Shown here: piece by piece, positions 2,588 through 51,390 of the stretch
How positions within the stretch are numbered: the stretch's first letter is position 1
Layout of the letters: each line of letters begins with the position of its first letter
Assembly: GCA_964019695.1 (NCBI GenBank)
Contig: OZ026524.1
Location: 28,250,164-28,314,163, forward strand
From: Loripinus fragilis
Taxonomy: Eukaryota; Mollusca; Bivalvia; Lucinida; Lucinidae
DNA length: 64,000 nt
Reading direction: 5' to 3'
Program-made: the position numbers and the translations under genes
Notes under the pieces: model-generated
Databases searched by the model: none
What the model was told of the DNA's origin: nothing
What the model saw: only the letters and a program-made list of their open reading frames with translations

Positions 2588-3715
2588 GAACTTTTAGTCA
2601 ACCTAGGAAGGGATAAACTATTTTTGTCTAGGAAGTCTTTATTTTCGGCTGTGAGGATATGTTTGATGTTATCGCTCATTATGTTATGTGGTGACGTGGA
2701 ATCGAACCCTGGACCACCAAAATCAACACGCCAAAATGAAAGGGTGACGACTAGGCAGTCAACATTAGAGTCATTTTCGTCGGATAGACGGGCTTCAATT
2801 GAACAATCTCGTTTTCCAATCTCGGAGCCGACGGAGAGGGTACATGAAAGACCCCAAAGTGAGTTATTTAGTTTCCTTTCACAAATGAAATCGGACCTGT
2901 CTGCACAAAATCAGAGTGTGATGACCGAAGTACGAAATATAAACACGAAAATTGTTAGTTTGTCTCAAAGTGTGCAAGACTTAAAAACTGAAAATGAAAA
3001 TCTCAAAAAATTCAATGCAAATCTACAGACCCAACTAAATTGATTTCATCAAAGTTGGACTATATGGAGGGTCAATCTCGTAGAAATAATCTGCGCTTTA
3101 ATGGTCTACAGGGTCGTTTTGACGATGACTGGGAGGTCACAGAAGAGAAAGTCCGATCATTCATTAAGGACGAAATGGGATGAACACGTCAAAATTGAAA
3201 GGGCGCATAGACTGAAATCAGCAGACAGAAATAAATGTACTATTATCGTAAAATTTACCAAATACAAGGACCGAGAAGCTATTCTGAGGAGAGCCAATGT
3301 TATCTTTAACCCTGAAACACCCTTTTCTGTGCAAGCGGACTATACACAGCGAGTTAAAAAACATCGACGTGAATTGGGGAAGCAGATGATAGCCGCCAGG
3401 CAGGCAGGTCAAGACGCTAAAATCAAATATGACAAGTTGGTTATTGGTAACAAGATTTATCGCTATGATGATGAGAGAGAGACTTCTGTGCTCGTGCGAG
3501 ACAATAGCACTTTAACGCGCGCACATGGCTCATTATTCAGGAGATCAGCTGACTATAGAAGAATCCCAGGACACGAGACTATCTCAACCAATCGAGAAGC
3601 GAGCGGCTCAGTGAACGGTGTCGACGAGCGCGAAAATGACAGCGCGCGAAGTCAAAACGAGGATATGGGCGGCGCTGAAGGCGGTAACAACGGTGACACA
3701 GAGCGCGTTTACTAG
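2588..3715 (+). pseudogene. LINE ORF1 protein (L1-type RNA-binding), frameshifted
   Basis: ORF1 proteins bind the element RNA and act as nucleic-acid chaperones. The frame opens after a TAG at 2585 and runs to a TGA at 3041. The protein continues in another frame from about 3046 to 3180 and returns to the first frame to 3715, so at least two frameshifts are present. In order I see a hydrophobic stretch ending in a 2A-like motif, a Ser/Thr-rich linker, a coiled coil rich in Leu, Asn and Lys (about 2870-3040), an RRM-like block with RRNNLRFNG (3085-3111), the ERAHR motif with a following IIVKF strand, and a basic C-terminal domain. The last 60 codons are acidic and Asn/Gly-rich. Confidence 0.8.
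2666..2716 (+). other. 2A-like ribosome-skipping peptide at the start of ORF1
   Basis: The codons at 2690-2716 read GDVESNPGP, which fits the 2A consensus D-V/I-E-x-N-P-G-P, and a hydrophobic Leu/Ile/Met-rich segment precedes it, as in working 2A sequences. Skipping would occur between the Gly at 2711-2713 and the Pro at 2714-2716, releasing a short N-terminal peptide from ORF1. 2A-like sequences at this place are known from several invertebrate LINE clades. The ATG at 2666 would leave only a very short leader; the frame is open back to 2588. Confidence 0.85.
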
Positions 3716-11733: not shown

Positions 11734-14174
11734 CACTTTAAATCTAGCTTATTTTTTGATATGCAAGATAAGGTCATGTATTTTGCGTACGTTTCTCCAC
11801 AAGGGTCGACAATTTACAATAATTCAAATGAGAAAATTGGAATTGTTCTATTAGAGAGCAATATAGCTGATGTCAAATTCTGATACCCCGACTCGTATTT
11901 CTTCCTGGCCGGCGATCTAAATGCCAGAATAAAAGATTTCATTGACTTTATACCAAATGACGATCTTCAATATGTTTTTGGGGAAACGAATTATGAATCC
12001 GATGATTTTGATATGAAAAAAAGCAATAAGGATGGTGTTTACAATTTATTTGGAATCAGCCTAGCTGAGTTATGCTGTACGTTTGATATGCATATTATAA
12101 ATGGGCGCTTATTCGGTGACCAAGATGGTAACTTTACTTGTATAGCAAACAATGGGGCCTCTGTGGTTGATTATAATATTGCTTCAAGTAAACTTTTTGC
12201 TAAAATATCAAATTTTCCGATTGAAGATCGCGATGAGAGCAATCATTTCCCCGTTTATTGTCAGTCCACATTTCCACATAAAAATCCTACACCACATATT
12301 GGAGATAAACCCCAGAACCGATCGTCACAAAATAACTTAAATTATTTGCGTTGGAGTGATGAACAGAAGGAAAATTTCATGACGCATTTTTGTAATAACT
12401 TAAATATTTCGAAACGAGACATTTCTCAGCAAATAAATGAAAATATTGATGCAGCTATTGAATTGTTAACAACTGTATACACTTCTGCAGCCAATTGTAT
12501 GTCCAAACCCTCGAAACCGCGAAGTTTACCTTCACAACCTCCCTGGTGGGATATAACATGTACTGATTTGAAGCAGAAAAAATATGCAGCATTGCGTAGG
12601 TTTAGAGAAAGTAATGAAATTTCTGATTTGAGAAAATATAAAGATCAGAGAAATTTATTTAAGCACGCATGTCGGTTAACAAAACAACATCATCAAAAGC
12701 ACTGTAGACAAAAATTAATGGAAGCAAGTAAGGACCCTAAAATATTTTGGAAGACTGTTAAAGTATCTCAAACACCACCAACCCCTAATATAAGCGATTC
12801 CCAATGGTATTATCACTTTAAGTCCCTTCTCTTTTCAGAAAATCAAAATTTAGGACCTCAAAACGAAGATGACGCAGAGGTACATGCAGATAATACAGCT
12901 GATATTTTAAACGAAGAAATTACTATTGAGGAAATTATTTCAACTATTAAATCTTTGAAGACCGGGAAAAGCACAGGGCCGGACATGAATTTTATAAAAG
13001 TACCGCTACAGATATTGTTCCAATTTTGAAAGATGTATTTAATCGCATTCTTGATTCTGGTGTGTGTCCCAAGTCTTTTGGTGAAACTATTCTATGTCCC
13101 TTACATAAAAGTGGACCAACTAGTGATCCCAACAATTTTCGAGGTATATCATTAGTAAATACAATGTACAAAATATTTTCCAGTATTTTAAACAAGCGCC
13201 TTTATGCCTGGGTCGAAGAAAATGAGAAACTTGATGAGTCATAAGCCGGGTTCAGAACAGGCTACTCTGCTATTGATAACATATTTTCTTTAAGTGCTCT
13301 TATCCAAAAATACTTATCAAGACGCGGCGGACGGTTCTATTGTTTATATGGTGACTTCCAAAAAGCATTCGACATTGTGGAACACGAACAGCACTTTAAA
13401 AGTCTAATGAAAAAAGGAGTACATGGCAAATTTTTAAGGACAGTAAAGTCTTTATATTCTAACTTATACGCATCGGTGCGCACAGTTAATGGTCTTACGA
13501 AAGCTTTCCTTTGTAATATCGGTACCAGACAAGGGGATGTAAGCAGTCCGCTACTATTCGCATTATTGATTAACGATTTATGTACCTTACTCCGAGAGCA
13601 GTGCGCTGGTGGAATCTTCATCACCGAGGAGGTTTCAGACATATTCTGCCTAATGTTCGCAGATGATATCGCAAATTGTGCCGATACACGGATAAGACTG
13701 CAAAAACAATTAAACATTATCTCTGAATTTTGTCAATTAACAAAAATGACGGTAAACTTGAATAAAAAGGAAATTATTGTATTCCGAAATGGCGGTCCTT
13801 TACGCAGTTATGAGTCATGGACCTTTAATGGTATACCAGTTAAAACTACTTCTGAGTAAAAATATCTGGGCCTTATATTTACACCTAAACTTTCGTGGTC
13901 TAAAGCGAAACGGAAACTGGCATCCCAAGCTAGAAAAGCAATATTTTGCATAAAAACTTATCAAAGAAAATTTGGTTATTTTCAACAGGATGAAATATTC
14001 CGTCTTTTTGATTCTATGGTTAAACCGATTCTCTGCTATGGGTCTGAGGTCTGGGGCACTGAATACTCAGACGTTATAGAATCTGTTCATTTCAATTTTT
14101 GTAAATATTTTCTAGGAGTCAACAACTCAGTAAATAATGCTGTTGTTATTGGTGAGTGTGGCCGTCTTCCTCTT
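11734..14174 (+). pseudogene. LINE ORF2: endonuclease C-terminal part and reverse transcriptase
   Basis: After the insertion the frame resumes with HFKSSLFFDMQDKV, followed by an in-frame TGA at 11881 and the endonuclease motif FLAGDLNAR, whose Asp and Asn are catalytic. A long frame (12013-13029) completes the endonuclease (SVVDY, SNHFPV) and enters the reverse transcriptase at KTGKSTGPD. A frameshift near 13000 leads to NNFRGISLVNTMYKIF, and a TAA at 13241 interrupts before the AGFR motif. The catalytic motifs GDFQKAFD and MFADDI (13654-13671) are both preserved. A further stop at 13857 precedes KYLGLIF. The protein would copy element RNA at nicked target DNA. Confidence 0.9.
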
Positions 14175-22190: not shown

Positions 22191-22859
22191 AACAACGAAG
22201 ATTATGAAAAAGTGCAGAAATAGAAAGATTGACATATTTCTGTATATTGTTTGCGAAGTTACACGCCATTATGTAGCTGAGCGCAAATGTCTAGTAGTCA
22301 GGGGCACTGTACCAGTAGTCCTGGGTCTAAAAAGGCAATTTGTATGCAGTCGTCAATATGTGTCTGGACGCTGTCAATGGGAGCATGAGCAGTAGCGGTT
22401 TTACTATTGTTTTATTTTTTCTGGAGCGTTCACAAAATGTCGCAACAAAGCTTGCAAATCAATTTCAATGCAAAAATTAGCTTATAGCTGTGTCACACTG
22501 TCACAAATAAGGCCAACTTTGTCTTGAAGCAAACAATTTTTCAAATTTCGTTTAAAGAGAAAATGCACTTTACACAATCATGACAAAAACAATAATACAT
22601 GCAATATTAGTCATTATCAGTTACCTCGCATATTAACTGCATTGTTGTGCGATGCCTGATAAACGTTTTCTATCTTACGACATGTGCCTTTATCAGGTCA
22701 TGATGACGTTGTAGCAGTTTTTAAATGACATCGCTAGTGACGCTGAATCAACAAAAAATCGAAAATACGTCATAATCGCTAGTTTGAAGAGTGAAACAAT
22801 GGGTAAACTGATAAATAGATTACCAGGTTTGCGTCTTTTGATATCAAATTTACCATGCT

Positions 22860-23152
22860 CGCCTTTGAGAATGAATGTTGAATCAGTTGACAAACAGTAC
22901 GTAGGAGAAACCAAAGGCCCATTTAACAAACGTATGAATGGCCCCCGTGACGACTGGAGACACCGTAGGTTTGAAAGATCACCAACAGCAGAACATTTTC
23001 ATTCTGCAGATCATGACTTCTTGAGTAATGCCTCTGTCTGCTGCCTTGAACACAACAAGGAGTGGTCAGATTCGACCAGGAAACTCCGTGAGAGCTACTG
23101 GATTCGGCGTCTGAACACCCTGTGTCCATTTGGCATCAACAAGGGTGACTGA
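22860..23152 (+). pseudogene. Canonical PLE, C-terminal GIY-YIG endonuclease fragment
   Basis: The frame carries KQYVGETKGPFNKRMNG, the YIG half of a GIY-YIG nuclease with its conserved Arg, then DDWRHRRF, AEHFHSADHDF with conserved His residues, and RESYWIRRLNTL, whose Glu is the metal ligand, ending INKGD and TGA at 23150. In canonical PLEs this nuclease lies at the protein's C-terminus, and the stop right after it fits. The GIY half and all of the reverse transcriptase are missing, and the upstream 80 codons are unrelated, so this is a 5'-truncated insertion. It belongs to a different PLE branch from the Naiad at 25956. Confidence 0.85.
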
Positions 23153-25565: not shown

Positions 25566-26346
25566 CCCTTTCGAGTTGTTTCCCTTTGCAAATTTGGGCA
25601 TTGAAAATGTGTGATAAAGATATCTCGAAAATTTTATATCTAGCAGCTTCAAACTTGGTCAGCTGTTAGATGTTTAGTAGATTACCCGGTGAAATTATTT
25701 TTTTAAGCTATTGCTCTTCGCATATTTGGCTATTGAAAACGTGTAATCATGATATCTCAAAAATTATTATAGCTAGGAGCTTCAATTTTGTCAGCTGATA
25801 GAGGATGATGAGTAGTATTGCTAGAGGCTTCAAACCTAAGATGCCACTTCCTTATAAAGGAGTACCATCCTATAAAAAGCAAAGGGTTGAGGGCACAGTG
25901 TTTCATTTCTAGCTTAAAAGTCTGTAGCTAATTAAGTACGTAAGATAAAATGAGGCTGATCTTTGCACCATTACTTACTTTTATTATCAGAGTTGTTTTG
26001 TCTGTGCTGCGTGGCGGCCCTAAAAAGTCTCCCCGCACTTTCATTTAATGCTCTTATTTTTCCAATCCTCAGGATAGTGTGTACAATCTCCTTCCATTAT
26101 TCCTGTCCCTGGATATCCTCTATGTCTTGTACCGCATTTAAGATCACTAGATGACCGATTTTCATACCCCGTTGTATAACTTCTGCTTTCTATATACCTG
26201 TGGACTTGTATTAGCCATTTGGATTATCGCTTGCATTTGTTATACCTTCCTTTGCTTTTAAGGACTCATATTATACTGGCTTGTCATTTTAATAACCGGT
26301 GTGTTGATTGCTTGTCTTGGGATGGTACTTACCCACACAACTTTTA

Positions 26347-29300
26347 ATGATAAGAACGAAAATAACAAAATTACATTTATCTCCCATTAGTTTACATTCG
26401 GCGTCCTCTGTTCGTATTCCTAGTTCAGTTAACAATTTTCGGGATATGCTTCCTATCATTAGGTTATCTCCTCTTGGGTCACCTATTATCAGGAAGTATA
26501 CTAAACCATTTAATGCATTCAAAAGACGCGGAATGTATCCTAATGTTTCTAAGTGCAATGCCAAGAGGTGTGTCTGTTGCACATATTTATGTACTAAAAC
26601 TACCATTACATCATCTGTAAATGGTAGAAAATTTTCCATAATTAATAATAATGATTTGGACTGAACTTCATCGGATCTGATTTATGTTATTACTTGAACT
26701 GAAACTAACTGTGGAATGCAATATGTTGGACAAACTGGCCGATCCCTCAAGACTAGGTTTCGTGAGCACTTTCGTAAAATGAAAAAGCCTAAAAAATTTG
26801 ACACATTTCTTTATCGCCATTTCAAAAATAATGGTCATCCACCTAGTAAAATTGTAATTCAGCCGGTTGAAAAAATTACATATGATCCAAATTCATCAAC
26901 TAGATTAAAAAATATTAAGAGACATGAAACTGAACTTAAATGGATTAAATTTTTGCAATTACCTTTTCCTTTAGGCTTTAATGATAATATATACCATGAA
27001 GGCAACATTTCTAAAATGCCAGATTTTGATGTTTTTTCTGTTTTGGAATGTAAAAAACGTAAAAGAAGATCTCATGGTAAACGAAAAAATGGCAACATTA
27101 AGCGCAAAATTTGTACTGAAAAACGCTTAAATACTTCTCTAAAGGATCTTTCTTTGGCTTTAACTAATCATGGTCGACAAGACTTATTTTCATTTTTAAG
27201 TTCCTTGCCTATCTCAGTTTTACGCAATTTAGAGTTAGAGGCTAATAAACTTTATGATAGAGCAAACAAATTATATAAAGCAGCACTCCTTTCAAGGTGT
27301 TATGTTCAACATTTCCTTAGTCCTTATATCGATTCTGAGGTCAACCATAAACGACATTTTATCAAAATTCCATTCATTAACAAAGGTATTGAGTTTATTG
27401 ATTTACATAGTATCTTCAAGGATAATTCAGTGATTTCATCTATTCCAAATTACTTTAATAATTCTGAAACTCCTATCATTTGTTATAAATATAACAAACC
27501 AATAAGGTCTACGATATTTAATTTTAATAAAATTGTAAATGATTTAGATATAGATTCCAATACTCCTGCCTCCTGAGATTGTAAAAATTCAAATTATTTA
27601 TATTCCTCTGCAGGGCATGTTATTACAGGTAATCTAAATGTCATTCCTGACGCTAGAGTTCGCAATATCATTTCTAAAGGTCCTAAATATAGATTTCCCT
27701 CTAATATTGATTTCTCTAAATGTCGTAGAGAGATCGCTGCTTCTTTAAATGACTTCAGTAATCGTTGGTGCAAACGGGAAAATGTTGAACCTGATGCTTT
27801 GAAGGAATGGAAGATTAACATTTTTAAAATTATTGATACTCGTATTTCATTTTACTCTCGTAATACACATCTTTTGCCCCCTAAACCTAAATCTTCTTTT
27901 AGTCATCTTAAACGAGGTATCCAGGATTTTCATATGAACTATGTTTTGGTTCCAGCAGATAAAGCTGCTAACAATGTTGTAGTTGTTTGACGATTGTATT
28001 ATATTAATACTCTTAAGCGTGAGCTTGTTGACACTAATGCCTATAAACTGCAGCCTTCTTTAAGTGAAAGGGTGATTGTTGATGGGCATGGTTGTCATAC
28101 AGCCCTACATTTTGGTGTCAAAGCTAAAGAAAATCAAGACAAAGTTCCTACGTTGTACTGGTTACCTAAACTCCATAAAAAACCCTATAAAGCAAGATTT
28201 ATTGCAAATTCTAGTTCTTGTTCAACAACAGAACTTTCTAAATTGTTAACCTCATGTCTTACAGCTGTTAAAACACATGTTATCAAATATTGTGAAAAGG
28301 TATATGAGAGATCTGGTAAAAACCTATTTTGGTCGACTAAAAATTCAGGTGAAATTTTAGATAAACTTAAAGCTAGAGATTTCAATGCGACCAGTTTGTC
28401 TACTTATGATTTTTCTACTCTTTACACTACTTTACCTCATAATTTAATTAAAGATAAACTTATTGATCTTATTGAAAGTACCTTCCAGAGAGAAGGCTCT
28501 CCTTACCTTGCATGAAGTGACAGAAATGCATTTTTTACTTCAGAAAAACCTAAAAAATATCATGCATGGTCGTGTCAAAATGTATGCGATGCGCTGACCT
28601 TTTTGTTGGACAACATTTTTATTCGATTTGGCACCAAGCTCTATAGACAAGTTGTTGGGATTCCTATGGGCACTAATTGTGCTCCCCTGGTTGCAGATTT
28701 ATTCCTGTTTTGTTATGAAAGGGACTTTATGATGTCTCTTTCTGATGATAAGCAGGCTGATGTTATTGATGCGTTTAACACTACTTCCAGATATTTGGAC
28801 GATATTTTAAATATTAATAATGTTTATTTTGACAATATGGTTAGTCAAATATACCCTTCAGAGCTCTAACTTAATAAAGCCAATGCCTCTGATACCGAAG
28901 CCGCATTTTTAGACTTGCATTTGTCAATTTCTAATGATATTGTTTCTACCAAAATTTATGACAAACGTGACGACTTTGATTTTGAAATTGTCAATTTCCC
29001 ATTTTTAGATGGTGATGTTCCTCGTTCTACATCCTATGGAGTCTATATCTCTCAACTCATTCGTTTTGCTAGAGCATCTAGCTATGTTGCTGACTTCAAC
29101 ACTCGCAATAAATTGTTAACTCAGAAACTTCTTAAACAAGGCTATCGGTATCATAAACTTCGCAAAACATTTTCAAAATTTTATAGACGATACTATGATT
29201 TGATTTCTAAATTCCAAGTTGGACTTAAATCTCTCTTGCGCCAAGGACTTTGGGAACCTGATTCCTATGGTGACTTGGTGTATAAGTTGAAGAAGATTGT

Positions 29301-29490
29301 TGGCTCTAATAATTTTTCAGCGCAGTTCATTAAAATAATTTCCCATTATAAAAAGATTGGCTATAACATTAATGTATTGCAACAGACTGCATGCTTGGTA
29401 GTCAACCCAATCACGGTTGGCAACTTTGCTTTCCTCTTTAATTGCACGCCGGTGGGTCGGACTTCAGACTCTATGATGGTTCCGACTTAA
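26347..29490 (+). CDS. Naiad PLE polyprotein (GIY-YIG endonuclease + reverse transcriptase), five in-frame TGA
   Basis: The enzyme nicks DNA and copies the element RNA. From the first ATG at 26347, one frame of 1047 codons runs to TAA at 29488 without a frameshift. In order: a Cys-rich CNAKRCVCC block (residues ~78-86); the GIY-YIG nuclease with LIYVIT (112-117), YVGQTGR and FREH; a basic tract (236-255) that could be a nuclear signal; the PADKAANNVVVV motif; YWLPKLHKKPYKARFI; the catalytic YDFSTLYTTLP with Asp 688; IPMGTNCAP (772-780); and YLDD (816-819). Stops inside are TGA at codons 106, 117, 410, 548 and 723 and TAA at 841 (28867). At 106, 117, 548 and 723 I recall Cys in relatives. Selenocysteine is therefore likely, and the TAA (CAA with one change) probably inactivates this copy. 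Nuclease-first order defines Naiad and Chlamys PLEs. Confidence 0.88.
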
Positions 29491-29998
29491 AGACTCATCT
29501 ATTGATGAGATGGTAGGGGCCTGATGCTTTGGCTGTTTGTCGGGCCCACCGGGGTTTACCTGTTGGATTTCTTTTGCTCCGGTATTCAGTTTAATTTACT
29601 GTTGAGTCCTTATCCTTGCTTTATCTCCTTGTTATACCTTGATTTATATGTTTTAGGAGATGATGCATTGATAAGTTAGGGGTCTTTCATGCAAACCAAA
29701 TATCTATGTGTCTTGATCCACATCTGAATTAAGGGTGAGGTTGGCGCCGTTAATCGGTTTAAGCCCTCCCGTAAAATATTTTACTGACCGTTCCAAGGCG
29801 GTACTTCTTTTGTGGATCTTTTATGTTTTTGTTCTGTCTTGTGTTTGCTATGTTTTGTGCGCGTCTGTTTATATGTGCTTTGTGGTCACCTGCTGGGAAA
29901 GGGCTGACCTCTTGGCTCTCGTTTGTGGTGTCTTCTGTGAGTTTGTCACTTTCCCATTGGTATCCTGGGTCAGGTGTGGTACTTGATTGTATCGATTC
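29491..29998 (+). other. Naiad 3' untranslated region
   Basis: The tail is shared with copies at 50600-51128 and 63483-63955, at roughly 95% identity by eye. It carries a hairpin at about 29511-29550 (GGT..GGGCC facing GGCCCACC), a small CTCATC/GATGAG hairpin at 29494-29509, the palindrome GTAAAATATTTTAC and the block GACCGTTCCAAGGCGGTAC. If the TGA codons are read as selenocysteine, a SECIS element should lie here. I could not place one confidently by eye. Confidence 0.6.
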
Positions 29999-30284
29999 CT
30001 GATCTTTGCACCATTACTTACTTTTATTACATCATTTGAATTGCCAAGCATTGATCGTTTGTTCCGTATATAGTATATAATCATAACCTGTTTGTGGATG
30101 AAGTTTTGAATGTGTTTTCATTACTTATTGAATTATACCCCTCGTATACTGATTTTTAAGGAAGGTTGTTGTTTTTCTAAATATATTACAATAATTTGTT
30201 CTCACTTATATATCCATCTTCATGTGCTTAACCGGAGTTGATGCAGCACCTGAATTATGCGAAAGGGATTTATTTTTTAAGAAA

Positions 30285-30825: not shown

Positions 30826-33800
30826 ATGAAGGATGAGATATTGACAACTGGACTGGACCAGTTTGGTTGCTTGGTTGACGAGTGCTCGCAAGGTGTTGAT
30901 TTTTCCAACGACTCCACAAATACATGTAAGGAAACACTGTTCCAAGAAGCCACATATGTAGCTGCTGATAAAGATTTTACAAACGAAGTTGGACAGGAAA
31001 CAAGAAATAGTTGTGCTTTGGGGGAAATCTCGCGTGAAGATGATGACGGAAGAGATTTTGGAATGTGTCCGATAAACGAACTTGCAGTGAGAGTCAACAT
31101 TTATGGGCGTAAAAGTAAGAACATTATTATTGTTAAGGAATTCGACCCACTCTATCCTTTTTTCAGTCATTCATTCACTTTTTTTAACATATATAACAGT
31201 TTATAGATCCAGTTAATTTAGCGCAATTTAAACATGTATTGGGTGCTCAGAAGAAATGACACGGTTTTTGCCGTACCTAAACATACGTTTTGGTTGAAAA
31301 ATAGGATAAATATTTTTTAACTTAGCACTCTTATCTGGAGGCCCTAATTACCCACATGAGAAGCATATGCATTAGTGTCATTTTCAATGATTTTGATGGC
31401 AGCAAAATGACTGAAAGAGAATCAATTTGACAATTAATAAATAGAGGGGAACAGATTAAGTAAAAGCAAACAAAAACATTTCTTAGGCGTACACATGTTC
31501 TCAAAAGTTTGTGTTTCCCAAAGTTTCCACTACGGTGTACCTTAAAAATGTGAACTGTTCAGTTACAAGACACAAGCTAGAGGGCCACATGAAGACCCGT
31601 CTCGACACGACTGAAAAATGTTGACTGAGACGTAAAGAATAAAAACGCACATTTACCTGGGTAGGCATTGACTCTAACGTGTATCCCCTTGATAAACAGG
31701 GTCACAAGTACATTATGCAAAGTCATAGTTCACCAAATGCGTCAATAGAATACTAAACACTGTTACAGTTGTATGCATGCTGTTTTTCGCTCCAATGCAA
31801 AGATTGTATGTTTAGTTACATAGTAATTATTTCCTTATACATTTAGACATAACTAAAAGCCACTATGTAGACGGGTCCACAAGAGATGCGTGTGCCAATC
31901 CACCGTGCAGGATACCTTTCTCGTACCGTGCTCGGCCTCATCACTGCAGGAGGTAAGGTGAAACTGAAAAAAATGAGCCAGTCTCGGCCTCCCCATCCCC
32001 ACCCCCACCCCCGAGAAGCCAGTTCGTGAGATGTTGGTACTTATCGCGTAATAACTATGCGAGCAGGGAAGGCTCAGACAAACCTGTACAAAATGCGCAG
32101 TTTTGTCTGAGCCTTCACTGCTTGCACACAGAGCTAGTATATTAAGACATCTTTCGACCTAAATTCTATGCCAGTGTTGTTTTAAGTCTGACTCTAATTT
32201 TGTATTGCAATTCACTAGCTTGTCTAAACATAATTACGTCTATTGAATTAACATTCTTAAAATCACATTCAGATCAGTCTAAATTGCATTGCACTCCTTT
32301 AAATCTCATTCGCACTCATACTCTTAGAGCGTCCCTTGAAATCACATTCAGATTAATCACGACTGCATTAAGTCACATGAAATCACATTCAGATTAATCA
32401 CGACTGCATTAAGTCTCTTGAAATCACATTCAGATTAATCACGATTGCATTAAGTCTCTTGAAATCTCATTCAGATTAATCACGTTGCATAATTACGTCC
32501 TTGGAATCACATTTAGACTAACCACGACTGCATTGCGTCCCTCGAAATCCCAATCAGACTAATCACGACTTTCTAAGGTCTCTTGAAATAACATTCAGAT
32601 TAATATAGACTGTATAACGTCTCTTGAAACACCATTCAGATTAGCATACTAGTTGCCGTCTCTTGAAATAACATTCAGATTGATATAGACTGCCCTGCGT
32701 CGTTTAAATTTACATTAACGTGCCTAACGTTTTTGATACCATTCAGATTAATCAAGGCTGTCATACGTTTCCTCAAATAACATTCAGGCTAATCTCGACT
32801 GTGTGACGGCTCTTGAAATAAGATTTACATTCAATAACATTCGCATTCATTCATCATTCATTTGAAACAGCATTTAGATTTATCATGACTGTCATATGTC
32901 TCTTGAAATAGAATTCAGATTAATATAGTCTGCCTTACGGTTCTTGATGTAACATTCACATTCATTTCGGCTGCCTTGCGTATCTTGACGGACCATTCAC
33001 ATTCATTTAGACTGCCTTGCGTATCTTGACGGAACATTCACATTCATTTAGACTGCCTTATGTTCTTGGTGTAACATTCACATTCATTTCGGCTGCCTTG
33101 CGTATCTTGACGGACCATTCACATTCATTTAGACTGCCTTATGTTCTTGGTGTAACATTCACATTCATTTAGACTGCCTTGCGTATCTTGACGGAACATT
33201 CACATTCATTTAGACTGCCTTGCGTATCTTGATGTAACATTCACATTCATTTCGGCTGCCTTGCATATCTTGACGGACCATTCACATTCATTTAGACTGC
33301 CTTACGGTTCTTGATGTAACATTCACATTCATTTCGGCTGCCTTGCGTATCTTGACGGAACATTCACATTCATTTAGACAGCCTTATGTTCTTGGTGTAA
33401 CATTCACATTCATTTAGACTGCCTTGCGTATCTTGACGGACCATTCACATTCATTTCGGCTGCCTTGCGTATCTTGACGGAACATTCACATTCATTTAGA
33501 CTGCCTTATGTTCTTGGTGTAACATTCACATTCATTTAGACTGCCTTACGGTTCTTGATGTAACATTCACATTCATTTCGGCTGCCTTGCGTATCTTGAC
33601 GGAACATTCACATTCATTTAGACAGCCTTATGTTCTTGGTGTAACATTCACATTCATTTAGACTGCCTTGCGTATCTTGACGGACCATTCACATTCATTT
33701 CGGCTGCCTTGCGTATCTTGACGGAACATTCACATTCATTTAGACTGCCTTATGTTCTTGGTGTAACATTCACATTCATTTAGACTGCCTTGCGTATCTT

Positions 33801-36800
33801 GACGGACCATTCAAATTCATTTAGACTGCCTTATGTTCTTGGTGTAACATTCACATTCATTTAGACTGCCTTGCGTATCTTGAAGGACCATTCACATTCA
33901 TTTAGACTGCCTTGCGTATCTTGACGGACCATTCACATTCATTTAGACTGCCTTATGTTCTTGGTGTAACATTCACATTCATTTAGACTGCCTTGCGTAT
34001 CTTGACGGACCATTCACATTCATTTCGGCTGCCTTGCGTATCTTGACGGACCATTCACATTCATTTAGACTGCCTTGCGTATCTTGACGGAACATTCACA
34101 TTCATTTAGACAGCCTTATGTTCTTGGTGTAACATTCACATTCATTTCGGCTGCCTTGCGTATCTTGACGGACCATTCACATTCATTTATACAGCCTTGC
34201 GTATCTTGACGGACCATTCACATTCATTTAGACTGCCTTGCGTATCTTGACGGAACATTCACATTCATTTAGACTGCCTTATGTTCTTGGTGTAACATTC
34301 ACATTCATTTCGGCTGCCTTGCGTATCTTGACGGAACATTCACATTCATTTAGACTGCCTTATGTTCTTGGTGTAACATTCACATTCATTTAGACTGCCT
34401 TGCGTATCTTGACGGAACATTCACATTCATTTAGACTGCCTTATGTTCTTGGTGTAACATTCACATTCATTTCGGCTGCCTTGCGTATCTTGACGGACCA
34501 TTCACATTCATTTAGACTGCCATATGTTCTTGGTGTAACATTCACATTCATTTAGACTGCCTTGCGTATCTTGACGGACCATTCACATTCATTTAGACTG
34601 CCTTGCGTATCTTGACGGAACATTCACATTCATTTAGACTGCCTTGCGTATCTTGACGGACCATTCACATTCATTTAGACTGCCTTGCGTATCTTGACGG
34701 AACATTCACATTCATTTAGACTGCCTTATGTTCTTGGTGTAACATTCACATTCATTTCGGCTGCCTTGCGTATCTTGACGGACCATTCACATTCATTTAG
34801 ACTGCCTTATGTTCTTGGTGTAACATTCACATTCATTTAGACTGCCTTGCGTATCTTGACGGAACATTCACATTCATTTAGACTGCCTTATGTTCTTGGT
34901 GTAACATTCACATTCATTTAGACTGCCTTGCGTATCTTGACGGAACATTCACATTCATTTAGACTGCCTTATGTTCTTGGTGTAACATTCACATTCATTT
35001 AGACTGCCTTGCGTATCTTGACGGACCATTCACATTCATTTAGACTGCATTGCGTATCTCGACGGAACATTCACATTCATTTAGACTGCCTTGCGTATCT
35101 TGATGTAACATTCACATTCATTTCGGCTGCCTTGCGTATCTTGACGGAACATTCACATTCATTTAGACTGCCTTGCGTATCTTGACGGACCATTCACATT
35201 CATTTAGACTGCCTTGCGTATCTTGACGGAACATTCACATTCATTTAGACTGCCTTGCGTATCTTGATGTAACATTCACATTCATTTCGGCTGCCTTGCG
35301 TATCTTGACGGACCATTCACATTCATTTAGACTGCCTTGCGTATCTTGACGGAACATTCACATTCATTTCGGCTGCCTTGCGTATCTTGACGGACCATTC
35401 ACATTCATTTAGACTGCCTTATGTTTTTGGTGTAACATTCACATTCATTTCGGCTGCCTTGCGTATCTTGACGGAACATTCACATTCATTTAGACTGCCT
35501 TATGTTTTTGGTGTAACATTCACATTCATTTCGGCTGCCTTGCGTATCTTGACGGAACATTAACATGCATTTACACTGCCTTGCGTATCTTGACGGAACA
35601 TTCACATTCATTTAGACTGCCTTATGTTCTTGATGTAACATTCACATTCATTTCGGCTGCTTTGCGTATCTTGGCGGAACATTCACATTCATTTAGACTG
35701 CCTTATGTTTTTGGTGTAACATTCACATTCATTTCGGCTGCCTTGCGTATCTTGACGGAACATTCACATTCATTTAGACTGCCTTATGTTTTTGGTGTAA
35801 CATTCACATTCATTTCGGCTGCCTTGCGTATCTTGATGGAACATTAACATGCATTTACACTGCCTTGCGTATCTTGACGGAACATTCACATTCATTTAGA
35901 CTGCCTTATGTTCTTGATGTAACATTCACATTCATTTCGGCTGCTTTGCGTATCTTGGCAGAACATTCACATTCATTTAGACTGCCTTATGTTTTTGGTG
36001 TAACATTCACGTTCATTAAGACTGCCTTACGTTCTTGATGTAACATTCACATTAATTTAGACTGCCTTAAGTTCTTGAAGTACCATCACATTCTTTTAGA
36101 CTGCCTTACGTTCTTGATGTAACATTCACATTAATTTAGACTACCTTGCGTGCTTGATGTAACACTCAGATACATGTACATCTGGATTTTCATACGTTTT
36201 TATGTAACATTCATTTAGACAGCCTTATTTTTCTTGAAATAACATTTAGATTCATCTAGACTACATTTAATTACACCTTTAGATTAATCTGGACTGCATC
36301 ACCTCCCTTGAAATAGCATTCGCGTTCATCTAGACTGCATCACCTCCCTTAGAATAGCATTCACGTTGATGTTGATCTAGACTGCACTACCTCCCTTGAA
36401 GTAGCATTCAGATTCATCTTGCCACATTGCGTTCCATAAAACAACAATCACGTTCATATTGAGCGCATAAAATTCATGGGCGGATCCAGAGGGGGGACAG
36501 GGGGTCCGCCCCCCCCCCTGAAAAATCACAAAAATATAGGGTTTCCTAGCATTATTGATCCGGATCCCCTAAAATCATAAAGCTACCAAGCTAGCATTTA
36601 ATGGTGGGCCATAATCAGCAGGCCAGCGAAACGCCAAAGTTCGACCCCTCTGACAAAACGTTCTGGACCCGCGCATGAAATCTTTTGAAATAACATTCAC
36701 GTTCATCTAGACTACACTGCGTCACTTAGCAGGAATGCGACTGTTAATTCGAGTGACTCAATTTAGTCAAGCCATTTTTGCCAGGCACCATTTTAATATA

Positions 36801-49539: not shown

Positions 49540-51390
49540 TATGTTCTGGAATTTATGCTTACTTTAGATAAAATGCAAAACATCAGTACTTTAATGTGCA
49601 AAAGTTCGAAATCTGAGGGCATTTTGAAAGCTATTCAAGCTTTTCATGCTGTACACATAGTACTGTATATCAGGTATTCTGGCCCAGTGATCGGGTAAGC
49701 GACTGCATACATATTGATTATAGTGCGGGGTCCAATTCACAATTGTCACATAGAAAATGAGTTCGTAGTACTCTGTGTATAACAGCATATTTTGCTGAAA
49801 ATGGTTAGATAAAAGGTAATATTTTATCAATTTGCATGATGCCAAGGCTAAATCAAGGGCAGCTACCCATGAGGCTGCCCTAAAGTATGACGTCACAAAT
49901 ATACAAATCGCAGTAATTTATTTCGAAAACTTCTTTTCAATCTTAATTTCTCAGAGAGTTTTGTATATTATCCAACAATATCAATGCATTCAAGAAATGA
50001 GTTATACGGGGTTATTTTTAGACTTGCATTTGTCAATTTCTAATGGTATTGTTTCTACCAAAATTTATGATAAACGTGAAGACTTTGATTTTGAAATTGT
50101 CAATTTCCCATTTTTAGATGGTGATGTTCCTCGTTCTACATCCTATGGAGTCTATATCTCTCAACTCATTCGTTTTGCTAGAGCATCTAGCTATGTTACT
50201 GACTTCAACACTCGCAATAAATTGTTAACTCAGAAACTTCTTAAACAGGGCTATCGGTATCATAAACTTCGCAAAACATTTTCAAAATTTTATAGACGAT
50301 ACTTTGATTTGATTTCTAAATTCCAAGTTGGACTTAAATCTCTCTTGCGCCAAGGACTTTCGGAACCTGATTTCTATGGTGACTTGGTGTATAAGTTGAA
50401 GAAGATTGTTGGCTCTAATAATTTTTCAGCGCAGTTCATTAAAATAATTTCCCATTATAAAAAGATTGGCTATAACATTAATGTATTGCAACAGACTGCA
50501 TGCTTGGTAGTCAACCCAATCACAGTTGGCAACTTTGCTTTCCTCTTTAATTGCACGCCGGTGGGTCGGACTTCAGACTCTATGATGGTTCCGACTTAAA
50601 GACTTATCTATTGATGAGATGGTAGGGGCCTGATGCTTTGGCTGTTTGTCGGGCCCACCGGGGTTTACCTGTTGGATTTCTTTTGCTCCGATATTCAGTT
50701 TAATTTACTGTTGAGTCCTTATCCTTGCTTTATCTCCTTGTTATATCTTGATTTATATGTTTTAGGAGATGATGCATTGATAAGTTAGGGGTCTTTCATG
50801 CAAACCAAATATCTATGTGTCTTGATCCACATCTGAATTAAGGGTGAGGTTGGCGCCGTTAAACCGGTTTAAGCCCTCCAGTAAAATATTTTACTGACCG
50901 TTCCAAGGCGGTACTTCTTTTGTGGATCTTTTATGTTTTTGTTCTGTCTTGTGTTTGCTATGTTGTGCGCGTCTGTTTATATGTGCTTCGTGGTCACCTG
51001 CTGGGAAAGGGCTGACCTCTTGGCTCTCGTTTGTGGTGTCTTCTGTGAGTTTGTCACTTTCCCATTGGTATCCTGGGTCAGGTGTGGTACTTGATTGTAT
51101 CGATTCCTGATCTTTGCAACCTTACTTACTTATATTTAACAGCATTTAAAACATGAGAATACTTATCTACGGTGGATTATTAAGGTCATGAATGTTATGG
51201 GTATACTTGTTTCTTATCAATTTCACAAAAGAGGGTTGTATCAAATGTATTATTTTCCTTATCAGTAAAGGAAATAATATAAATTTTACACACATTATAG
51301 TCGAATATATGGGCAAGCAGCGTGTAGAAAGATAAATAAGAAATACGGCTCCATTATTGCATAAAAGGGCAAAACGTATAACACCCAATT
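49540..51390 (-). repeat. Repeat family F, minus-strand copy split by a Naiad insertion
   Basis: The parts 49720-49980 and 51150-51340 are the inverse of 55190-55440 and 54955-55130. Shared blocks include AGTGCGGGGTCCAA, TAAATCAAGGGCAG, AAGTATGACGTCACAAATAT and GTGGATTATTAAGGTCATGA. The Naiad fragment at 50009-51128 sits between them, so the unbroken copy at 54955 serves as the empty site. Confidence 0.75.
50009..51128 (+). mobile_element. Naiad PLE, 5'-truncated copy 2
   Basis: It starts within the reverse-transcriptase C-terminal part (FLDLHLSISNG) and continues in one open frame to TAA at 50597, then carries the full tail ending at the CTGATCTTTGC block. The protein part is about 190 residues and differs from copy 1 at only about six positions. 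The frame contains no TGA, and copy 1 also has none in this stretch. Confidence 0.9.

Follow-up and report, generated by a model that had tools for sequence, protein, structure and literature searches.

How is a reading frame to be understood that encodes a nuclease and a reverse transcriptase (RT) in one uninterrupted register, and yet carries several in-frame TGA codons? The frame lies at positions 26347-29490 of a 64-kb window of the Loripinus fragilis genome (by the window we mean the whole stretch of DNA analyzed, 64,000 nucleotides). We read the window as holding a damaged copy from a Naiad family that was copied recently and whose single protein is a selenoprotein with four selenocysteines (Sec), and put the probability of this at about 0.92. 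The nuclease-RT enzyme very probably contains selenium. Support for this reading comes from four conserved TGA codons under purifying selection, from cysteine standing opposite them in relatives, from a SECIS-like hairpin found in two subfamilies and from a tRNA-Sec in the genome. Decoding of UGA as Sec, like activity of the protein, is inferred.

The frame belongs to a Naiad-type Penelope-like element, with the following layout:

25956..29998, + strand: complete unit of the element, 4,043 bp, with 31-bp perfect direct repeats 4,043 bp apart

29999..30029, + strand: the 31-bp terminal repeat again, as the start of a following unit, pseudo-LTR-like

26347..29490, + strand: single open reading frame (ORF), 1,047 codons when TGA is taken as Sec and a private TAA is passed over

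26668..26994, + strand: GIY-YIG nuclease domain, codons 108-216

27496..28866, + strand: RT region, codons 384-840, the end of the modelled part

Several Naiad features were seen, namely the nuclease-first order (GIY-YIG nuclease N-terminal to a telomerase-like RT), a CCHH set in the nuclease, a CxC motif between nuclease and RT, and tandem or pseudo-LTR units. Naiads are not known to carry a hammerhead ribozyme, and none was among the Rfam matches in the 64-kb window at the sensitivity of that search. Nucleotide matches in the own genome included a tandem array of three copies at 4,044-bp spacing (G000:C11). The first part of the 31-bp repeat, with a few changes, was also found at the 3' end of 29 other copies, so the repeat is element sequence; as a target-site duplication it was rejected on the same ground. 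Searches with the window protein gave no GIY-YIG or RT match in Pfam and no match among PDB sequences, and scans of viral contigs with the window protein and P0041 as queries gave no relatives. An earlier note on this DNA had described a single frame without frameshift and with TGA at codons 106, 117, 410, 548 and 723, all of which was found again, but it had missed a TAA at codon 841.

Stop codons were compared in an alignment of the window copy (L001, the reference row) with 29 others, which together make up 30 of the 42 places matched in the 1.99-Gb assembly of the own genome. At four codons TGA filled 117 of the 120 cells, and the three losses were to TTA, TGC and CGA. These sites are given below with their counts in the 30 copies, in the four copies of a second subfamily and in the Cys-type protein relatives, both of which are described further on:

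26662..26664, + strand: conserved TGA, codon 106 (proposed Sec 1); 28 of 30 copies, 4 of 4 in subfamily 2; Cys in 8 of the 9 Cys-type rows covering it

26695..26697, + strand: conserved TGA, codon 117 (proposed Sec 2); 30 of 30 copies, 4 of 4 in subfamily 2; Cys in 11 of 12 rows

27574..27576, + strand: conserved TGA, codon 410 (proposed Sec 3); 30 of 30 copies, 4 of 4 in subfamily 2; Cys in 13 of 13 rows

27988..27990, + strand: conserved TGA, codon 548 (proposed Sec 4); 29 of 30 copies, 4 of 4 in subfamily 2; Cys in 13 of 13 rows

Apart from these four sites and the terminal one, stops occupied 16 cells at 15 codons in 11 of the 30 copies (9 TAA, 5 TGA and 2 TAG); 19 copies had no such extra stop, although 2 of the 19 had indels. 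Conservation of TGA at the four sites exceeds chance, with 117 of 120 cells set against 16 scattered stops of all three kinds. Places scored for the N-terminal part in a protein search of the own genome numbered 83; 82 of them had at least two TGA, and 12 of the 83 also had a TAA or TAG (both counted by eye from the numbers of stops, without their positions). Roughly counted, with a transition weight that was assumed, the nonsynonymous-to-synonymous ratio was 0.24 among variants common to several copies and 0.77 among singletons, as expected if the transposing lineages are under selection.

The second subfamily consisted of four copies (L031-L034), 98.7-99.6% alike and 70-71% identical in DNA to the window copy, with TGA in 16 of 16 cells at the four sites. 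One of them, L031, runs from start codon to terminal TAA without any stop other than the four TGAs; downstream damage in the subfamily comprised a TAA in L034 and frameshifts in L032 and L033. Compared with the window copy (protein identity, 68%), L031 gave a dN/dS of 0.38 before codon 106, 0.17 between 117 and 410, 0.12 between 410 and 548, and 0.14 after 548, with dS of 1.4-2.0 in the stretches after 117, 410 and 548; the value of 0.63 between 106 and 117 covers ten codons, too few to judge. Selection downstream of 117, 410 and 548 argues that these TGAs are translated through.

The same values bear on a reading that overlaps with ours, in which the TGAs are mainly regulatory truncation points, short products dominate and Sec insertion is rare. 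The first two TGAs do precede most of the nuclease, and Sec insertion is generally partial, as that reading would have it. A stop at codon 106, however, would leave no domain recognised here, and purifying selection after 117, 410 and 548 needs a full-length product made regularly, so that we consider a mainly regulatory role improbable.

For the residue inserted, relatives of the window protein were informative. An alignment of the window protein with 18 of 32 protein search hits covered codons 1-840 and included 13 Cys-type rows, in which nine columns were at least 70% Cys (70, 75, 78, 106, 117, 122, 410, 412 and 548); all four TGA sites are among the nine. Codon 117 is TGA in the window element at the first position of a C-C-H-H set (117/122/141/158), whose residues were C, C, H and H in 11, 11, 12 and 11 of 12 Cys-type rows. 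Codon 410 opens the CxC motif (410/412), with Cys at both positions in 13 of 13 rows and TGA-x-Cys in the window element, and codon 548 falls, within the RT part, on a column that is Cys without exception. Read more crudely, from pairwise alignments, site 410 had Cys in 28, Trp in 12 and another residue or a gap in 11 of the 51 proteins covering it, noise that is mostly due to gaps near the CxC motif, although P0021 truly has Leu.

A second alignment held the window protein and 20 of 40 protein hits. All 18 short proteins in it (P0035-P0044, P0046-P0052 and P0054) begin after 117, end exactly before 548 and have Cys at 410, while two longer ones (P0033 and P0053) continue past 548 with W. By analogy with the window element, this suggests that many related families have a stop codon, presumably TGA, at 548 and keep Cys at 410, and with it a stepwise gain of Sec.

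Relatives with an organism name came from Pinctada imbricata and from metagenome-assembled genomes (MAGs) of Candidatus Thiodiazotropha, a taxon that is elsewhere listed as an endosymbiont of the lucinid clam Ctena decussata. Two proteins filed under these MAGs, P0102 and P0103, are Naiad fragments and probably stem from DNA of the clam host that was binned with the symbiont. A scan of genome contigs with A4 gave a single match (L036:5001-5294), a Cys-type Naiad-like remnant with Cys at site 548 that lies in a Bathymodiolus symbiont MAG and is probably mussel DNA.

A candidate Sec insertion signal was found at the end of the ORF, and again in a second element copy in the window:

29450..29551, + strand: SECIS-like hairpin; Rfam SECIS_1 match at 29465-29535

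50559..50660, + strand: same hairpin in a second, 5'-truncated copy; SECIS_1 match of 25.0 bits at 50574-50644

The hairpin core is AUGA / AAA / UGAU, with AUGA at 29473-29476, UGAU at 29522-29525 and the stop codon (29488-29490) inside an A-rich loop. The element-like part of the second copy (about 50010-51130, + strand) comprises the ORF's 3' end, the hairpin again and the 3' tail. Scores for SECIS_1 were 25.3 bits in the window copy, 25.0 bits in the second window copy and 26.5 bits in L031, below the Rfam gathering score of 35. For the window copy the E value was 0.092 for 4.2 kb and 1.4 over the whole window with all families, and matches to other families that are surely due to chance outscore SECIS_1 there (e.g., mir-5879, E 0.0007). 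Up to an E value of 10, the SECIS_1 matches on both strands of the 64 kb were the two element copies only.

The 101-nt hairpin stretch folds at -40.3 kcal/mol (z, -3.3). Of the 30 copies, all kept AUGA and UGAU and 29 kept AAA; in subfamily 2 all three were kept in 4 of 4. Pairing and covariation were scored on 9 hairpins (5 from family 1 and 4 from subfamily 2) of 35 (the 30 copies, the second window copy and the 4 of subfamily 2). Pairing was present in 92% of cells, against 25-53% for slid helices, a figure that is favoured because the structure was drawn from these very sequences. Covariation between the subfamilies was not significant, being equalled in 181 of 500 shuffles, and was dropped as proof of a SECIS.

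In both subfamilies the 5' arm of the hairpin is coding, forming the last dozen codons, and the UAA stop supplies part of the A-rich loop. C termini were surveyed in 117 new proteins among the 120 rows listed of 2,869 (many near-identical, from few families). An SDSM-like tail, which the hairpin 5' arm encodes in the two families read, was present in 62 of the 117; three proteins end at its SD and nine a few residues earlier. The position of the stop thus varies between families, and not every family has it overlapping the hairpin core. A review, in the excerpt used here, places all cellular SECIS elements in the 3' untranslated region (UTR) and gives a fowlpox mRNA as the exception in coding sequence (PMC8310308). 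By that account the place of the stop-straddling hairpin is unusual, and the arrangement may be new. A SECIS search had been proposed in the earlier note for 29491-29998; the hairpin was found, but it starts upstream of that interval.

Two candidate tRNA-Sec loci were found in the own genome by family search (77.8 and 77.6 bits; next match, 49.2 bits), and ARAGORN called the first of them tRNA-SeC with anticodon tca. Because the family search also matches 14 of 14 control genomes, 5 of them above the cut-off, the weight lies on the ARAGORN call.

Against plain readthrough or a reassigned code, with TGA giving Trp or another residue and no Sec involved, stand the SECIS-like hairpin and the tRNA-Sec. 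The frame is indeed open with TGA as W, and W is the residue given in P0001-P0009 and P0014 wherever they cover one of the four sites (P0014, 41-42% identical, at all four), but this W most likely reflects how the annotation program read TGA. In the 13 Cys-type rows Trp never occurs at the four sites, which have Cys except in P0027 (Leu at 106 and Ser at 117), and readthrough of four stops in series should be very inefficient. We regard this explanation as very improbable.

Two further stops in the window copy are of another kind:

28513..28515, + strand: private TGA, codon 723, damage; TGA in 1 of 30 copies, a Cys codon in 29 of the 29 others

28867..28869, + strand: private TAA, codon 841, damage; TAA in 1 of 30 copies, a sense codon in 29 of the 29 others

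Because of these two codons the window copy is itself to be taken as damaged. The 13 Cys-type rows have Val (7), Ile (3), Leu (1), Lys (1) or a gap (1) in column 723, and Cys occurs there only in close relatives; in subfamily 2 it is present in the three copies whose frame gets that far. The retroelement protein with five Sec that was first proposed, nuclease included, is accordingly reduced to four sites: 106, 117, 410 and 548 belong to the element, with 117 inside the nuclease and 106 just before it, and 723 is a private mutation of 1 copy in 30. Alignment of other copies, which had been suggested as a check, gave the same division, with TGA kept at the four codons and Cys encoded at 723 in all 29 others. 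Cys had also been expected opposite the TGAs at 106, 117, 548 and 723; this was borne out at the first three but not at 723 (Val in 7 of 13), and 410, which had been left out, qualifies. Pseudogene decay, in which the TGAs would be inactivating mutations spread by the copying of one dead master, holds for 723 and 841 and agrees with the presence of at least one stop besides the four in 11 of 30 copies, but for the four sites it is in our view refuted by the same TGAs in a subfamily at a dS of about 1.5 and by the dN/dS of 0.12-0.17 after 117, 410 and 548, the TGAs moreover sitting on conserved Cys columns, and we give it almost no credence there.

Other features were noted in the window. A frame at 22715-23149 (+ strand) has a YVGET...R pattern, which we take to resemble the GIY-YIG nuclease that canonical Penelope-like elements carry at the C terminus. 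An open frame at 2588-3040 (+ strand) contains GDVESNPGP, presumably like a 2A ribosome-skipping motif, and may be ORF1 of a non-LTR retrotransposon. Frames at 11884-13856 (+ strand) resemble two parts of such an element, the endonuclease and the reverse transcriptase (a label from sequence reading). A 41-bp tandem array of about 80 copies spans 32913-36151 and shows strong strand skew (GC skew of -0.18 in 32001-36000). The mir-5879 match at 32053-32131 occurs on both strands (34.8 and 32.3 bits; cut-off, 97) and is probably just a palindrome.

Taken together, these observations are explained better by Sec at the four sites than by any of the rivals considered. Under the selenoprotein reading, the host tRNA-Sec would decode UGA at codons 106, 117, 410 and 548. 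The signal would be the SECIS hairpin that straddles the ORF end, with the last dozen residues encoded by its 5' arm and the UAA stop placed in its loop. Sec would replace Cys just before the nuclease domain, at the first position of the C-C-H-H set, at the first position of the CxC motif and in the RT part, where it would most likely stand in for Cys as a metal ligand or redox residue. A host that decodes UGA well may tolerate such replacement, which would tie the full-length nuclease-RT to selenium supply.

A further proposal joins two ideas and is unlikely to hold as a whole, namely that the hairpin acts as a governor because the SECIS is melted at termination, and that Sec was gained stepwise in an old bivalve clade. 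A ribosome terminating at the UAA would have to melt the SECIS, so that SECIS-bound factors could act only when no ribosome was finishing, which would limit the full-length nuclease-RT made per mRNA. For the gain of Sec, sites 548 and probably 117 may have come early, and 410 may have come later or flipped between Cys and Sec.

A mobile enzyme that appears to need Sec at four conserved Cys positions and exists in many copies offers a natural experiment in Cys-to-Sec exchange, at metal-binding and reverse-transcriptase sites. If the selenoprotein reading is true, transposition would depend on host selenium metabolism. There is also a warning for annotation, as databases seem to hold such proteins either split at TGA or with Trp entered there. 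A stop codon placed within a SECIS would be relevant to the question of how one mRNA serves both terminating ribosomes and SECIS factors.

Naiads of clams and spiders with several Sec were reportedly described in 2021 by Craig, Yushenova, Rodriguez and Arkhipova. Our literature search returned no paper joining Penelope-like elements and Naiads with selenocysteine, or Penelope-like elements with selenoprotein, a result of little weight since its coverage excluded that work. Multi-Sec Naiads being reportedly known already, what deserves following up is the hairpin that straddles the stop, together with the stepwise gain of Sec that may have occurred. With the Sec Naiads so described, the present element shares the N-terminal GIY-YIG nuclease, the CCHH set, the CxC linker, the telomerase-like RT, tandem repeat-ended units, many copies and, on the selenoprotein reading, several Sec. 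With Cys-type Naiad-like proteins (P0012, P0013, P0017, P0018, P0019, P0022 and others) it shares the domain order and most of the nine Cys columns; these proteins differ in having Cys at the sites covered, except P0027, and are 23-38% identical to the window protein.

Selenoprotein P, the SECIS elements of which lie in the 3' UTR, is unlike the Naiad in being a host gene and not a mobile element. In bivalves it resembles the proposed Naiad selenoprotein in that several Sec come from one mRNA, with 46 Sec in oysters and 132 in one bivalve according to the excerpted text (PMC8230778). The glutathione-peroxidase-type SECIS of fowlpox, as given in the excerpt of the review, is like the Naiad hairpin in not being confined to the 3' UTR, but it lies in coding sequence, whereas the Naiad hairpin straddles the stop codon (PMC8310308).
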